Assembly (NCBI GenBank): GCA_948433885.1
Contig: CAOJEC010000008.1
Location: 1-40,433, forward strand
DNA from: an uncultured bacterium
GTDB taxonomy: Bacteria; Bacillota_I; Bacilli_A; RF39; UBA660
Length of the DNA: 40,433 nt
Direction of reading: 5' to 3'
Shown: piece after piece, positions 28,248 to 40,433 of the stretch
How the letters are laid out: each line of letters opens with the position of its first letter
Position numbering within the stretch: the first letter of the stretch is position 1
Position numbers and translations under genes: made by a program
The notes under the pieces: model-generated
Told to the model about the DNA's origin: nothing
What the model saw: the letters and a program-made list of their open reading frames with translations, nothing else
Databases searched by the model: none

Positions 28248-31175
28248 TCATTTTTGAGGTATTTCTCCCCTACCCATGATATAATTTTTAATCTTTACGT
28301 AGTCTGTTGCATAGATGTTGCCATCGTTGTCTATATCGGCAGCTAGGTAATATGCTCCTTGCAAGGTAGGTCGACCCATGATTTGATTTTTGATTTTGAC
28401 ATAGTCTGTCGCGTAGATGAGGCCGTCGCCGTTCGCATCTCCTTTGATGACTACTGTATAGTCGTATACAACATTGTCTATCTCTAGAGCAAATTTCATG
28501 CCTGTCGCGATGATACCCGAAGTTATCTCGGTTCCTGTCGCGTCTTGAAATTTTTGTAATGTGACTCCGTCGAAACTTGTGAGCATGTTTTTGACATTTT
28601 GAACGGAATCTCCTAAAGTGAAGCCTACCAAATATCCTTCTTTTTTAGTCAACCCAAGATAATTGAGTACTTCTTCTTCGGTTATTTGAACAGTCTCGTC
28701 GCGAACCGTCAAAGTAGTCGATAATCGCATGATGTTAGTTCCGACATGGATGTTTGTATATATTGTGGTAGAACCTTTAGCAAGTCCTCGTATGACATTG
28801 TTGGAAACTGATGCGATGAGGGTGTCCTCTACCGACAAATCATAAGAAAGAGTCGTAGATGGATAGGTTGTTGGTTCCAATCTTTTTGTCTCGTTTATGG
28901 AGATGATCATTTTATCTTGAGTAGATATACCTACGAGTCCTATTCCCAAATTGGAAGGATCCAAAGCACTCGTGTTGTGTAATTGATTCGCATACGTACC
29001 TACTGATGGGATCGACGTATTTGTTATATAGTAAGCGTTTTTTGGAATCTTATACGAACTATCGGTTATATACTGTTGAGCAATGAAACTTCCGACATAG
29101 AGATCTCCTTTGACTGATCCTGTTGTGAAACAGTTTTCTATGAGAGAGTTGCTGTTGAGCCCGATGAATCCTCCAACACTCCGAGGAGCTTCTACTGATA
29201 GTGCAGAAGAACAATTTCTTATCGTCGTGTCACTCGAAGCATTTCCTACAAATCCTCCAGTCGAAGCGAGCGAATTGTCTAACAAGTCTTTAGCATTTTT
29301 GACAGATCCACTAGTAAGATGAACGTTTTCTATTGTGACATTCGCTGTAGTAGATGCAAATCCTCCCAAGTAACTACCCTTAGTCGATTGAACAGTGATA
29401 TTTTCGATGTAAATATTTTCTATTTTCGAATGTGTACTGTAATCACCTAAATCGTCGAAGACGCCTGTAGATGAGACGATGTTTTTGAGTTTCTTCCCAT
29501 TACCATCGAGATTACCTTTGAAATTTATCGAAGGGTACGTCATGTTTGCAAAATCCAAATCGGACGTCAACTTGTAATATTTTCCACTCGTATCTAGTTT
29601 CATAAAGTATACGAAATCGTCGGGAGTTTTGATTAGATATGGATCTTGTTTTGTACCCGATCCGGCAAGTGATGGTAAAGTCACATTGAACGTTATAGAA
29701 TCTGCCGTTTCGGCGATGACTTCGATGATCACGCCCGAATTAGTGCCATTGGAATAATAGATGCTCGTGTTGTCGAAGGTCGTTACCGATGGATCGAGAG
29801 CTTTTCCTAGTGTTTTCCTATTCATATTCAAAGTTGCACGACTCAAGTTACCTTTACCTGCTCCCAAGAACGGTTCGTCAGGTCTATAGATGAAGATATG
29901 ATCGAGTTCTCCGTGGTCGCCTCCCTCTTTGTCGCCTTGGTACTTGTTGTTGTCGTTGACACGATAGACGATCAATCCACTTTCGTCAGCAGAATAAGAA
30001 CTGTACGTGTTCTTTTTTTCGTGATATTCTACGATGAAAAATTCTTTGGATGATTTGTCTGGTTGAATTTTGATGGCTCTTTGTTCACTGTCATCCAAGT
30101 ATTTTGGTTTTTGAACGGTGATGTTCGTAGTCGTCTTATCGATTATTGGTAGAGGGTCATGCCAAGCGAGCATGCTACTATATTCAGTAGTAAAATAAGT
30201 CAGGAGATCCGAAGGATTCGAGCCACTAGATTGTCCCATCAAATCGTAGAAACCCACTGGTGTACTTCCCGAGTGGTCAAAACGATAGAGATCGAAAAGC
30301 CCCAAAGTATGACCGTATTCATGCATGATGGTGCCATATGTTCCACGGTTTAGTGAAAATAGCCCTGCTGCTTCGGTGTAGTCGTATGTGTACAATAGAT
30401 TGTATGAAATAACTTGTTTTCCCAATATTTTAGAAGATAGTCCGTAATTGTCCAACTTATGGGACCAAAGAAGGTCGCCCCAACTTATACTAGCACTTAG
30501 TACGTCTTGTCCTTCGATGAAAAATGAGATGGCATCTATTATACCATTGGAGTCGGTGTCAACTTCCGACTCGGCGATTCCAGCTGCGTCTATTTCATTC
30601 GAAACGAATGCGATGGCCGAATTGACAAGTTCAGTTTCTCTATTCATCGATTCAGTTTTATCTTTGTATCCTATTTGGTTGGAATCGCTGTATGGCATGT
30701 AGTAACCGACAGGGTGTGAATCTCTATAGGAAACTACTTCGCCATTGACGCGTGGAAATATTTCGGTCGTTATTGACAGTTTTCCATAGCTTTGCATTTC
30801 GTAGTATTTTTTGAACGATGGGACTTCAATTTTTCCGTTTATGGTGTCCATTTCAAAAAAGTCGGGACTATTGAACAGTTTTTTTGCATTCTCGACACTT
30901 TGTTTGTCGTCGAGGTGATTGTTAGTCATCGTATCACTATCCGAAAATTCTATGAACACGGCCAAGTACTTAAGTATTCGATTTTGTGACTTGGTATCGG
31001 AAGAGATCGGTTTACTAGTTTGTCTAGATTCGATACCATATAGTTCATTGTAATCTGCTAACAATTCGTATTGATTCGATAGTTCCCTATCTTGAGTCAC
31101 TGGTGCAAATTTCAACGAAGATGAAAGGAAAGAACACAGTAGCAATATAGTCAATATTTTGCTAAATTTTTTCAT
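28248..31175 (-). CDS. Secreted M6-type metalloprotease with C-terminal dockerin
   Basis: 975 aa. Signal peptide 1-20. The catalytic domain (about 65-480) has the metzincin-like zinc site HEYGHTLGLFDLY (H285, E286, H289) typical of M6 immune-inhibitor-A proteases. Residues about 500-700 have repeated DGNGKKLKNI, GGFASTTANVTIENV, GGFVGNASSDTTIRNC, GGFIGLNSNSLIENC units resembling GLUG or beta-helix repeats. A bacterial Ig-like stretch follows (about 745-830). Residues 912-975 are a type I dockerin with two calcium loops (GDANGDGLIYATDYVKIKN, ADIDNDGNIYATDYVKIKN). It should be secreted, cleave host or dietary proteins, and dock to a cohesin-bearing partner. It overlaps by 14 nt with the upstream gene. 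Confidence 0.9.
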   Translation of the reverse strand: MKKFSKILTILLLCSFLSSSLKFAPVTQDRELSNQYELLADYNELYGIESRQTSKPISSDTKSQNRILKYLAVFIEFSDSDTMTNNHLDDKQSVENAKKLFNSPDFFEMDTINGKIEVPSFKKYYEMQSYGKLSITTEIFPRVNGEVVSYRDSHPVGYYMPYSDSNQIGYKDKTESMNRETELVNSAIAFVSNEIDAAGIAESEVDTDSNGIIDAISFFIEGQDVLSASISWGDLLWSHKLDNYGLSSKILGKQVISYNLLYTYDYTEAAGLFSLNRGTYGTIMHEYGHTLGLFDLYRFDHSGSTPVGFYDLMGQSSGSNPSDLLTYFTTEYSSMLAWHDPLPIIDKTTTNITVQKPKYLDDSEQRAIKIQPDKSSKEFFIVEYHEKKNTYSSYSADESGLIVYRVNDNNKYQGDKEGGDHGELDHIFIYRPDEPFLGAGKGNLSRATLNMNRKTLGKALDPSVTTFDNTSIYYSNGTNSGVIIEVIAETADSITFNVTLPSLAGSGTKQDPYLIKTPDDFVYFMKLDTSGKYYKLTSDLDFANMTYPSINFKGNLDGNGKKLKNIVSSTGVFDDLGDYSTHSKIENIYIENITVQSTKGSYLGGFASTTANVTIENVHLTSGSVKNAKDLLDNSLASTGGFVGNASSDTTIRNCSSALSVEAPRSVGGFIGLNSNSLIENCFTTGSVKGDLYVGSFIAQQYITDSSYKIPKNAYYITNTSIPSVGTYANQLHNTSALDPSNLGIGLVGISTQDKMIISINETKRLEPTTYPSTTLSYDLSVEDTLIASVSNNVIRGLAKGSTTIYTNIHVGTNIMRLSTTLTVRDETVQITEEEVLNYLGLTKKEGYLVGFTLGDSVQNVKNMLTSFDGVTLQKFQDATGTEITSGIIATGMKFALEIDNVVYDYTVVIKGDANGDGLIYATDYVKIKNQIMGRPTLQGAYYLAADIDNDGNIYATDYVKIKNYIMGRGEIPQK

Positions 31176-36530: not shown

Positions 36531-36542
36531 AACTTGTAATTT
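36531..36542 (-). repeat. AAATTACAA motif, copy 7 (short form)
   Basis: Coding-strand AAATTACAAGTT, 21 nt after the stop of the 36-aa gene. It is the copy farthest from a stop codon. Confidence 0.5.
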
Positions 36543-36703: not shown

Positions 36704-37285
36704 CTATAATTTTTTAATTATAAATATTTCGATTATAAAAATAATAAATGTTATCAACCCTGTCAAAATTGCTAAAAAAATCTTTTGATAATTTCTTTTT
36801 CCTATTTCTTGTTGTACTTCTTCATAAGATAATGGTTTATTTTCTATAAAAGCAATAATTTCTTTATAAGTTTGAATGTCATTATTTTTTTTAAACTTCT
36901 CAATGTTTGTCGCTGTTAAAATTGTTATTACAAAAAACAATACCCAAATAATAGCGCCAATATATCCATCTATTTTAAATAACGGATATGCACTAAACAT
37001 TAAAATTAACATTTCTGCTAAGAAAATATAACTCATTATGTTAAACTTTTCTATTTTATCTTTACTAACTATCTTCTTCATCTCCTCTATATCTTCTTTT
37101 ATAAAATCATCTAGAGTTACATGAAAGATGTTAGATAACATGGTTAAACTTTTTATATCTGGGTAACTTTTACTTGTTTCCCAATTTGAAATCGTTTGTC
37201 TTGAAACAAATATTTTTAATGCTAGTTCCTCTTGTGAAATATTTTGTTTTTCCCTATATTTTTTAATTTTTTCTCCAACATTCAT
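36704..37285 (-). CDS. XRE-family regulator with membrane C-terminus
   Basis: 193 aa from MNVGEKIKKYREKQ, preceded by GGAGGT; upstream in-frame extension is unsupported. The helix-turn-helix spans about 3-58 (ISQEELALKIFVSRQTISNWETSKSYPD). Residues about 80-125 hold two membrane helices and 168-190 a third. Such regulators are thought to sense from the membrane and often govern neighbouring small operons. The downstream 36-aa membrane peptide is the natural target or partner. Base composition differs from genes left of 36.4 kb (few CG), consistent with acquisition. Confidence 0.85.
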   Translation of the reverse strand: MNVGEKIKKYREKQNISQEELALKIFVSRQTISNWETSKSYPDIKSLTMLSNIFHVTLDDFIKEDIEEMKKIVSKDKIEKFNIMSYIFLAEMLILMFSAYPLFKIDGYIGAIIWVLFFVITILTATNIEKFKKNNDIQTYKEIIAFIENKPLSYEEVQQEIGKRNYQKIFLAILTGLITFIIFIIEIFIIKKL

Positions 37286-37500
37286 TTTGCACCTCCAGTT
37301 ACATTTTATAAAAAAATGATATTTTTGTCTGCCAAAAGTCTTTGACATCAAGTTGTTAGTAATGAATTGTGGTAAATTATTCTTCATAATTATAATAAAA
37401 TAATTATTAATTGGTTAAATAAAATAATATAAAATATTATAAAATCATTTTCTCTAATTTAAACAAATTAAAGGACTGTTTGGATAATAAAATTGATATT

Positions 37501-38478: not shown

Positions 38479-38490
38479 AAATTGTAATTT
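38479..38490 (-). repeat. AAATTACAA motif, copy 6 (short form)
   Basis: Coding-strand AAATTACAATTT, 2 nt after the TAG stop of the 47-aa gene. Confidence 0.6.
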
Positions 38491-38492
38491 TT

Positions 38493-38636
38493 CTATTTAG
38501 CAATAAATCTATAAATTGCATAAGCAACCCATATAAGCCAAGAGAATGCCCATATATCAAATATAAAACTTACTGATAGATACAAAATTGCAACTATAAT
38601 GGCAATTATCCAATTCATTAGTTTTTTATTTTTCAC
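38493..38636 (-). CDS. Small two-helix membrane protein (47 aa)
   Basis: GTG start giving MKNKKLMNWIIAIIVAILYL and then SVSFIFDIWAFSWLIWVAYAIYRFIAK. An internal ATG (codon 7) is the alternative start. Two membrane helices with a short turn (FDIW) and basic ends. Unknown function. The start follows a 25-bp repeat (38644-38668) by 7 nt, and a short copy of the motif follows the stop. It is one unit of the cassette-like series. Confidence 0.6.
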   Translation of the reverse strand: MKNKKLMNWIIAIIVAILYLSVSFIFDIWAFSWLIWVAYAIYRFIAK

Positions 38637-38643
38637 AATATTT

Positions 38644-38668
38644 CATCTCACTTTCAAATTGTAATTTA
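38644..38668 (-). repeat. 25-bp post-stop repeat, copy 5 (full form)
   Basis: Identical over all 25 bp to the copy at 38839-38863. The coding strand starts TAAATTACAATTTG and continues AAAGTGAGATG. Its first three bases are the stop codon of the 55-aa gene, and its end is 7 nt before the next start codon. The GAAAGTGAG part may act as a ribosome site. Confidence 0.8.
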
Positions 38669-38833
38669 ATCTTCGATTTTCATAATAATATCGTATGCAA
38701 CAAAACATTCTTCTTTTGATAGTTTTGTTTCATTAACAAGATATTCTATTGCTTCATCTTTAGTAGAAAAATCTTTTAATATATTCTTTACTTCTTTAAA
38801 TTTCTCAATAACTTTTTTAATTTCATTATTCAT
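38666..38833 (-). CDS. Small acidic/basic helical protein (55 aa)
   Basis: MNNEIKKVIEKFKEVKNILK followed by DFSTKDEAIEYLVNETKLSK and EECFVAYDIIMKIED. Soluble, all helical, highly charged; no family recognised. Full-length frame with ATG 5 nt after one 25-bp repeat and its stop codon inside the next. The size and position between identical repeats argue that it is a real cassette gene. Confidence 0.6.
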   Translation of the reverse strand: MNNEIKKVIEKFKEVKNILKDFSTKDEAIEYLVNETKLSKEECFVAYDIIMKIED

Positions 38834-38838
38834 ATTCT

Positions 38839-38863
38839 CATCTCACTTTCAAATTGTAATTTA
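38839..38863 (-). repeat. 25-bp post-stop repeat, copy 4 (full form)
   Basis: Lies 3 nt after the stop codon of the MGMT-like gene (38867-38869) and 5 nt before the ATG of the 55-aa gene. Identical to the copy at 38644-38668, so the two copies flank exactly one gene. Confidence 0.8.
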
Positions 38864-38866
38864 TGT

Positions 38867-39343
38867 TTATAATTCAAACATACTTTTCTCATAATCTTTT
38901 ACATAGTATCTTATATTAGTTCTTCCTTTTTGAATAATAGTATGTCCTTCTTTTTCTAGCAACTTCTTTTGAAGTTCTATTCCTTCTGGATATTTTGGAT
39001 TTAGTTCGCCATCTGCTTTTAATGTTCTCCAATAAGGTGTTTCATCTTCTTTTCTTTGATAACTAGCCCAAGCAACAATAGATGTGAATATTCCTGCTGT
39101 TATTGGATCTGTAAAATCTGCAGTATTCTTTTTTGCAAAGTAATCTCTAATTTCTCCAACTGTTATTACTTTTCCATAAGGTATTTTCTTCATAACCTCA
39201 TCATAAGCCATTGGTGGTGCAAAATACATATTATCTCCACCATATTTTTTAATACTTGCCTCATCTGTAATTTTTACATATTTAGGCATATCTTTGCTAT
39301 CTTTTAGCATAGCATTAAAATCTTTTTTACTTTCATTTGCCAT
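38867..39343 (-). CDS. MGMT-family alkyltransferase-like protein lacking the acceptor cysteine
   Basis: 158 aa. The C-terminal two thirds match the DNA-binding domain of O6-alkylguanine-DNA alkyltransferases: IPYGKVITVGEIRDYF (about 54-69), the segment ending in TPYWRTLKADGELNPKYPEG, and LQKKLLEKEG. In active enzymes the pocket reads PCHRV; here it is PYWRT, so there is no acceptor Cys. This is the mark of alkyltransferase-like proteins that bind lesions and recruit repair. An N-terminal extension (1-50) is unassigned. AAGGAGG precedes the ATG. A 21-bp perfect AT palindrome (39369-39389) overlaps its likely promoter (TTGCAT-N16-TATAAT). Confidence 0.78.
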   Translation of the reverse strand: MANESKKDFNAMLKDSKDMPKYVKITDEASIKKYGGDNMYFAPPMAYDEVMKKIPYGKVITVGEIRDYFAKKNTADFTDPITAGIFTSIVAWASYQRKEDETPYWRTLKADGELNPKYPEGIELQKKLLEKEGHTIIQKGRTNIRYYVKDYEKSMFEL

Positions 39344-39433
39344 AAAAAATTCCTCCTTCTACCTAAATTATATAAAATTATTTTATATATGCAATGAGGC
39401 AGTTTTATTTTTTACAAATATTTTTATAAAGAT

Positions 39434-39445
39434 AACTTGTAATTT
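39434..39445 (-). repeat. AAATTACAA motif, copy 3 (short form)
   Basis: Coding-strand AAATTACAAGTT, 3 nt after the TAA stop of the 212-aa membrane protein gene. Confidence 0.6.
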
Positions 39446-39448
39446 GTA

Positions 39449-40087
39449 TTATACTAAAATTCTAAATACAAAAGCTAATAATAATGCTATTAGTAAATTA
39501 TAAACACTATTTTTAGGACTTACATATAGCACTAATATTGCTCCTATAAATAAAATTGTATCAATTATACTTTTAAAATAAAAATACCACATACCTATAC
39601 TAAAAGATAATATAAACATTACTGCCAGTATCAAACTACTAATCATAAGTGATATTTTATTTTTACTTTTTGCATACCAACAAATAAATGCAAGTATAGG
39701 AGATATTGATGTTATCGTGTACCAAATCATCATATAACTTTTTGGATTAAAACCACTAACACATATTGTATATAAATGATAACTTACTGTCATTCCGATA
39801 AATAATAAGAATACATTTAAACTTGCTCTTAACGGTGTCTTACTAAATACAGAAATTGTAATAGCAATAAATATCCATATTCCCAATTCAGAGAATACAT
39901 TTCCTAAATCTAAAACGCCTAATATGTGTTGCCACCATACTGTATCATCAATACTTAAATTATCTAGCCATTTAGAAAATATCCCCAATATTATTCCTAA
40001 TAAAAATATTAAACTTGTATTTATAATCTTCCTACTTAATTTTAGATTCTTATCAGGTATTCTAATTTTTTCTAAAACTTCTTTCAT
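39449..40087 (-). CDS. Six-helix integral membrane protein of unknown function
   Basis: 212 aa with a short basic N-terminus (IRIPDKNLKLSRKI) and six to seven hydrophobic helices, the first at about 24-40 (TSLIFLLGIILGIFSKW). WWQHILGVLDLGNVFSELGIW and SGFNPKSYMMIWYTITSISP are the most distinctive stretches. I do not recognise the family with confidence. ATG follows GGAG by about 5 nt. It belongs to the motif-spaced series at the right end. Confidence 0.65.
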   Translation of the reverse strand: MKEVLEKIRIPDKNLKLSRKIINTSLIFLLGIILGIFSKWLDNLSIDDTVWWQHILGVLDLGNVFSELGIWIFIAITISVFSKTPLRASLNVFLLFIGMTVSYHLYTICVSGFNPKSYMMIWYTITSISPILAFICWYAKSKNKISLMISSLILAVMFILSFSIGMWYFYFKSIIDTILFIGAILVLYVSPKNSVYNLLIALLLAFVFRILV

Positions 40088-40103
40088 TTTTTCTCCATTC
40101 TAA

Positions 40104-40115
40104 AAATTGTAATTT
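40104..40115 (-). repeat. AAATTACAA motif, copy 2 (short form)
   Basis: Coding-strand AAATTACAATTT, 5 nt after the stop of the PNPOx-like fragment and upstream of the GGAG site of the 212-aa gene. Confidence 0.6.
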
Positions 40116-40120
40116 TGCAA

Positions 40121-40356
40121 TTACTTAATATCAAAATTTTCTGTTTTCAAATCACAATAATATCTACCACTTGTTGCAGTAAATTTTAAAACACAATAAT
40201 CTGGATCAGTTACACCTTTTTTATAAAAAATTGTATCTCTCTTTTTCCAAATCATATTTTTGGTTTCTTGGTCTGTTAAAATTTCCATTTTTTCTTTTAT
40301 CATAACACCGACATATTTAATTAGTCCTTAAATTTCTCAATTTTCTTTAAATCCAT
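40121..40356 (-). pseudogene. Eroded pyridoxamine-5'-phosphate-oxidase-like (FMN-binding split-barrel) gene
   Basis: The C-terminal half is clear: MEILTDQETKNMIW, KGVTDPDYCVLKFTATSGRY and a final DLKTENFDIK match general-stress-protein-26/PNPOx-like proteins of gut Firmicutes, which are about 130-150 aa. The frame starting at 40303 gives only 60 aa. Upstream in another frame, MDLKKIEKFKD (start 40356) reads like the N-terminus of the same family and then hits a stop. Most of the FMN-binding N-terminal barrel is deleted. Probably inactive. Confidence 0.6.
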
Positions 40357-40363
40357 AATACTT

Positions 40364-40388
40364 AATCTCACTTTCAACTTGTAATTTA
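40364..40388 (-). repeat. 25-bp post-stop repeat, copy 1 (variant)
   Basis: Matches copies 4 and 5 at 23 of 25 positions. Its first three coding-strand bases are the stop codon of the gene at the window edge, and its end lies 7 nt before the ATG at 40356. Confidence 0.75.
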
Positions 40389-40433
40389 GCGAACTAATCT
40401 CTTTATTCTCTCAACATAATCATCTGCATGATT
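40386..40433 (-). CDS. 3' end of a gene cut by the window edge
   Basis: Fifteen codons ending NHADDYVERIKRLVR and then TAA, which is part of the 25-bp repeat. Too short to identify. Listed because its stop codon has the same relation to the repeat as the other genes in the series. Confidence 0.4.
   Translation of the reverse strand, partial: NHADDYVERIKRLVR

Follow-up and report, generated by a model that had tools for sequence, protein, structure and literature searches.

Integrons are the textbook system for the shuffling of gene cassettes, and the locus described here, which lies at one end of a 40,433-nucleotide stretch of DNA from an uncultured bacterium (referred to below, at its full length, as the window), resembles them, CALIN arrays included, in several respects. 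In both, single and mostly promoterless genes stand head to tail in arrays; a recombination half-site is found right behind each stop codon, and the first site lies behind a promoter; there is one crossover point, with conserved bases on its 3' side; and the cassettes enter, leave and are exchanged one at a time, their contents being rich in genes for resistance, for immunity and of unknown function. The promoter of the platforms that receive cassettes would also seem, from its position, to be placed so as to drive cassette expression. The locus differs from integrons in that no IntI is linked or recognisable and no tyrosine recombinase lies beside the platforms or arrays; in that the core is only 12 bp long; in that many short platforms are dispersed, some of them in phages, in place of one long array; and in its host, which belongs to the Bacilli, where integrons are nearly absent. 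An alignment of the core at 138 sites contains no RYYYAAC or GTTRRRY boxes; for GTTRRRY the initial annotation had remarked as much from the window alone. The 57–141-nt attC hairpin is also missing: that annotation had proposed to look for such a fold, and DNA folds of four sites, taken on both strands, gave z values of −1.3 to +0.8, no better than shuffles, with no attC-like hairpin. A true but degenerate integron, with an IntI-type integrase elsewhere in the genome and shortened attC sites, would account for the attI-like start with its promoter, for the head-to-tail single-gene cassettes and for their content of resistance, immunity and unknown genes; but the boxes and folds are absent, and the tyrosine recombinases of G009 and G129, both of which bear arrays or platforms, are an Xer pair with housekeeping genes as neighbours. 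Integrons are, furthermore, extremely rare in Firmicutes (IntegronFinder 2.0, PMC9024848), and we regard this explanation as highly improbable.

Other described systems share fewer of these features. The pdif modules, or IMEX, are likewise gene modules placed between short dispersed sites, have no recombinase of their own and are probably served by a host enzyme, but they lie between inverted 28-bp sites, whereas the present cassettes stand head to tail behind a promoter. Phage morons and the cargo of integrative mobilisable elements (IMEs) also occupy a fixed place in phages or mobile elements and consist of non-essential genes that have a promoter and a terminator, but they do not have the 12-bp core, nor the single genes, common to chromosomes and IMEs, that are exchanged here with base precision. 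SCC elements are 20–60 kb in length, carry their own ccr genes and insert into one gene (rlmH). They have in common with the present system a short insertion site at a gene end, serine recombinases and Gram-positive hosts, and differ from it by description, since the cassettes here are of about 0.2–1.4 kb and encode no recombinase. A transposon is a poor match: there is no transposase among the 46 cassette families, and each junction has one core and no target duplication. It appears probable that the window carries an array of cassettes served by an integron-like, site-specific recombination system that belongs to one family of uncultured gut Bacilli.

On the minus strand of the window, the motif AAATTACAA(T/G)TT occurs directly behind all six gene ends between the contig edge and 38.49 kb (Table 1), in agreement with the initial annotation. 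At these six sites, in the order of the table, the spacing between the end of the stop codon and the core is +2 (an overlap), −5, −3, −4, +2 and −2 nt. A seventh copy, which that annotation did not contain, closes the gene for an XRE-family regulator. The three copies that had been described as extending to 25 bp were found as reported: those at 38643–38667 and 38838–38862 are identical and flank the 55-aa gene, and the third (40363–40387) differs at two positions. What had been called a PNPOx-like fragment does belong to the PNPOx family, and can now be recognised as a decayed cassette. Contig C8 and the window stop at the same position, and the start of the array therefore lies outside the assembly. 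An Rfam scan of the window returned tRNAs only.

Table 1. Core sites and cassette genes in the window (positions are counted from its first nucleotide)
Feature	Position	Strand	Remarks
Core site 1 (AAATTACAAGTT)	40376..40387	-	3' end of the edge-gene cassette, whose alpha/beta hydrolase gene is intact in L077
Edge gene, 3' end	40386..40433	-	Matches the last part of the L077 cassette for a 246-aa alpha/beta hydrolase at 100% identity (Pfam of the L077 copy)
Decayed PNPOx-family cassette	40104..40375	-	~183 bp deleted relative to the intact L077 copy
Core site 2 (AAATTACAATTT)	40104..40115	-	
212-aa membrane protein cassette	39449..40087	-	Same cassette beside other genes in L022, L099, L102, L105
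Core site 3 (AAATTACAAGTT)	39434..39445	-	
158-aa MGMT-like (PF01035) cassette gene	38867..39343	-	Relatives in L064, L093, L092
Core site 4 (AAATTACAATTT)	38851..38862	-	25-bp version extends to 38838
55-aa cassette gene	38666..38833	-	195-bp cassette; 99–100% identity in L108, L133; precisely missing from L077
Core site 5 (AAATTACAATTT)	38656..38667	-	25-bp version extends to 38643
47-aa membrane peptide cassette gene, GTG start	38493..38636	-	Preceded by six or more different genes at other loci
Core site 6 (AAATTACAATTT)	38479..38490	-	Last of the run; sequence downstream is non-cassette
XRE-family regulator gene (HTH_3)	36704..37387	-	Recurrent cassette with its own upstream region; 87–92% DNA identity in L105, L093, L189
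Core site 7 (AAATTACAAGTT)	36531..36542	-	3' end of XRE cassette

The motif is not scattered through the genome irrespective of stop codons. Pattern searches located the 12-mer core 12 times in the 1.41-Mb genome, with seven of the 12 copies inside these 4 kb; a control search of that genome with the letters of the core in backward order found nothing. The seven copies in the window compare with a mean of 0.07 per window (maximum 4) for permuted words of the same letters. An exact scan of some 85,000 species genomes with the extended motif AAATTACAATTTGRAAGTGRG gave matches in 62 stretches, nearly all of them from metagenome-assembled genomes named as uncultured Bacilli, Tenericutes, Clostridium or similar; three matches from other phyla stand in no stop-codon context and look like chance. 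Among the sampled genomes only the window's own family has the motif, which is present in three of about 53 genomes of that family and in none of about 342 from other families of the class. The relation to stop codons, which the initial annotation had proposed to tabulate, holds far beyond the window: in a set of 46 scan matches picked irrespective of genes and stop codons, 35 lie directly behind the stop of an open reading frame (−13 to +3 nt); permuted control words do so in 19% of cases (Fisher p ~2e-15). The only match in a plasmid reference collection was to Enterococcus plasmids, which carry a diverged MGMT gene; a phage reference collection gave no match.

Evidence for recombination at the core comes from comparison of junctions at 243 distinct sites, with two sites taken to share a flank if 70 nt were at least 85% identical. 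In 91 site pairs the downstream 70 nt is common and the upstream sequence unrelated, and in 60 pairs the reverse is true; every one of these switches falls at the 12-bp core and none drifts into the flanks. Three bases of the core, AGT or TAC (core bases 5–7), travel with the upstream side, while the alternative T or G at core base 10 (position 9 counting from 0) travels with the downstream side, as judged from eight left-shared pairs that differ there. Seven right-shared pairs also differ at the T/G position; these are diverged copies of a cassette, and the differences are read as point mutation. The crossover is thus confined to about 3 bp: AGT or TAC is followed by AA and then by K, so that AA and its borders remain.

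Individual loci illustrate the same precision, and near-identical cassettes are found behind different neighbours. The array in contig L077 (CAOJDP010000012.1), which comes from another species, is 99% identical to that of the window, but in it the MGMT cassette is joined straight to the 47-aa cassette, so that the two arrays differ by exactly the 195-bp cassette of the 55-aa gene; that cassette recurs, at 99–100% identity and with other neighbours, in L133 and L108. A prophage (L184, in G092) can be aligned with two phage contigs from IMG/VR (L226 and L227) on both sides of a pair of cores. On the left the match runs for 5,661 bp at 98.9% identity and stops with the last base of the left core; on the right it starts with the first base of the right core and runs for 4,053 bp at 98.7%. 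Between the cores one of the two phages has an ABC-F ATPase and a 157-aa gene and the other has two unrelated small genes. These comparisons demonstrate precise gain, loss and swapping of cassettes at the core, and mobility of cassettes between species and phages. Gene order between copies of the motif is accordingly not conserved; insertions, losses and swaps break at the motif.

An alternative, raised in outline in the initial annotation, is that the core is a selected junction element, in which AAATTACAATTTGAAAGTGAG would serve as a joint of stop codon, processing site and ribosome site, and RecA or phage annealing proteins would recombine at short homology. The start codon does lie at a fixed 26–31 nt from the start of the core in most cassettes, GAAAGTGAG resembles a ribosome site, and inspection of sequence suggests that the phages encode ERF-like annealing proteins. 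A further point against a site-specific system is that the core is just 12 bp, with a right half, AATTT, that offers little for a recombinase to read. However, most junctions share only these 12 or so bp. Such a length is below those usual for RecA recombination. The breakpoints also stay out of the flanks, and the core has the same reading behind promoters and before terminators, where a joint between genes is needless. We consider the junction element unlikely. The other suggestion of that annotation, a recombination-based cassette system distinct from integrons, is a much better fit than homologous recombination, because so little sequence is shared at most junctions.

The beginning and end of arrays can be recognised by their sequence. 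At the start, a TATAAT-type box, a putative promoter, is placed 8–26 nt before AAATAGTAATTT (AYAAATAGT|AATTT); within arrays the cassettes are joined as AAATTAC|AATTTG, the alignment of 138 sites giving AAATTAC|AATTT; and the last junction of an array is AAATTAC|AATTTA, behind which many arrays have a terminator-like hairpin with a T run. Such platforms were found on chromosomes, IMEs, ICE-like contigs and phages, in some cases behind housekeeping genes, such as rpsI in L051. A near-identical IME present in three genera (L186, L187 and L188) encodes a 644-aa large serine recombinase (LSR) and a Mob_Pre relaxase (Pfam) and has its platform at the end, behind which L188 bears an Erm-like gene. 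In the ICE-like contig L175 (6344–6400) there is a promoter and AAATAGTAATTT, on which a terminator follows immediately, and this platform is, to judge by its sequence, apparently empty; L176 has a promoter identical to it, with a cassette behind. About 25 extra nt are present ahead of the terminator in L023 and L176. Related phages (L225, L226, L227, L229, L231 and L232 from IMG/VR, together with the prophage L184) have a promoter-plus-core platform at one fixed spot, between the regulator region and the HNH/terminase genes, which is filled with differing small genes. The arrays in L112, L114, L120, L088 and L097 sit in a common conjugative or mobilisable backbone, with the same neighbouring open reading frames in the five genomes. 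L102, which also contains an array, comes from the record of the isolate 'bacterium c-19'. Contigs often break off shortly behind a platform, those of G061, G057, G048, G086 and G006 within 200 bp of it, as might be expected if the sampled population is mixed in array content.

Altogether 73 distinct single-gene cassettes in 46 families were collected, from 176 to 1406 bp in length (median 529 bp). Pfam matches among them include GNAT, metallo-beta-lactamase fold, flavodoxin, PNPOx, nitroreductase, DUF3781 and alpha/beta hydrolase families, and the immunity proteins Imm5 and Imm11. Similarity to genes for lincosamide, macrolide and ribosome-protection resistance is seen in several genes located in platforms or behind them: one is closest to Lnu(AN2), one encodes an Erm-like methyltransferase and one an ABC-F protein. 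All three fall below curated NCBIfam cut-offs, and their role in resistance is putative. A TetM-type protein, which is above its cut-off, is encoded between two arrays in L023 and is not itself a simple cassette.

No recombinase was found linked to the arrays, and this includes the tyrosine recombinase or other integrase that the initial annotation had looked to at the end of the array. Like G009 and G129, the platform- or array-bearing genome G112 (99% complete) encodes two tyrosine recombinases, of Xer type only. It might be proposed that host XerC/XerD act on the core, as in the pdif modules of Acinetobacter: the Xer pair is near-universal in the family, it is the sole set of tyrosine recombinases in several array-bearing genomes, and a host enzyme would suit dispersed platforms that have no recombinase of their own. 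Against this, the dif site of the family is of the canonical Bacillota type (e.g. ACTTACTATAATCTATATTATGTTAACT) and unrelated to the core, which has neither XerC arm nor XerD arm; and Xer is universal in bacteria, while the cassettes occur in one family only. An Xer-dependent system is therefore improbable in our estimation.

Much the same degree of doubt attaches to the proposal that the LSRs of the carrying elements move the cassettes and that the AA invariant in the core serves as their 2-bp crossover overlap. The crossover interval does hold exactly one conserved dinucleotide, and LSR genes adjoin platforms in L077 and in the IME of L186–L188. Serine recombinases were present in all ten of the array-bearing genomes examined. 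However, no ortholog is common to these ten, the core stays constant where the LSRs vary between elements, there is no LSR in the vicinity of many platforms, and a serine recombinase search gave no match in 24 of 145 family genomes; a serine recombinase as the common linked gene was rejected on these grounds. Serine-type symmetry with AC/GT as central dinucleotide was also rejected, because genes would then insert backwards, and cutting after TTAC in the manner of IS200/IS605 misfits the AAATAGT found at platforms. In the window's own genome, L195 (4764–6554, C44) and L196 (6204–7451, C10) are copies of a large serine recombinase, 97% identical and one of them broken; their downstream genes are similar, and we read them as a recently duplicated mobile element.

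Since the platforms have no recombinase in common, the enzyme is probably the product of a single host gene and works in trans. That the sites are constant on carriers unrelated to each other, and within one bacterial family only, also suggests this. The integron-like system that we favour would then work as follows. The mobile unit would normally comprise a single gene that lacks a promoter but includes its ribosome site, with AATTT(G/A) as its 5' boundary and AYAAATTAC, at the stop codon, as its 3' boundary. The receiving platform would have AYAAATAGT|AATTT downstream of a promoter and, in many instances, a terminator-like hairpin after that. Exchange would be limited to some 3 bp, the AA in the core and its borders, and entry and exit would therefore be precise and in an orientation that permits expression. 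The intermediate may be circular or single-stranded, and the one host-encoded recombinase would probably serve all platforms.

A literature search that covered neither preprints nor most subscription journals found no description of such a system. To judge from the sites, which seem to fit no known family, the cassettes probably belong to a system of their own, allowing that it may have been described earlier in literature beyond so limited a search; it looks like a gene-shuffling system undescribed so far, which also carries antibiotic-resistance-like genes. On balance we lean towards a separate class of cassette exchange, without IntI or folded attC, served in trans by a host recombinase of one family of gut Bacilli and shuffling single genes, Lnu-, Erm- and ABC-F-like genes among them, between chromosomes, IMEs, conjugative elements and phages. 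A second system of the same logic, with other sites and apparently another enzyme, would mean that cassette exchange has evolved more than once. It would explain the exchange of accessory genes among gut bacteria with very small genomes, and it reveals phages and IMEs as carriers of cassettes. Should the enzyme prove to be an integron-type or Xer recombinase, the system would be less novel, and because the sites are short and well defined the question is directly testable.

Elsewhere in the window, the minus strand at 28248–31175 encodes a 975-aa protein that combines an M6 peptidase domain (immune inhibitor A) with GLUG and type I dockerin domains and adjoins a cadherin-like surface protein.
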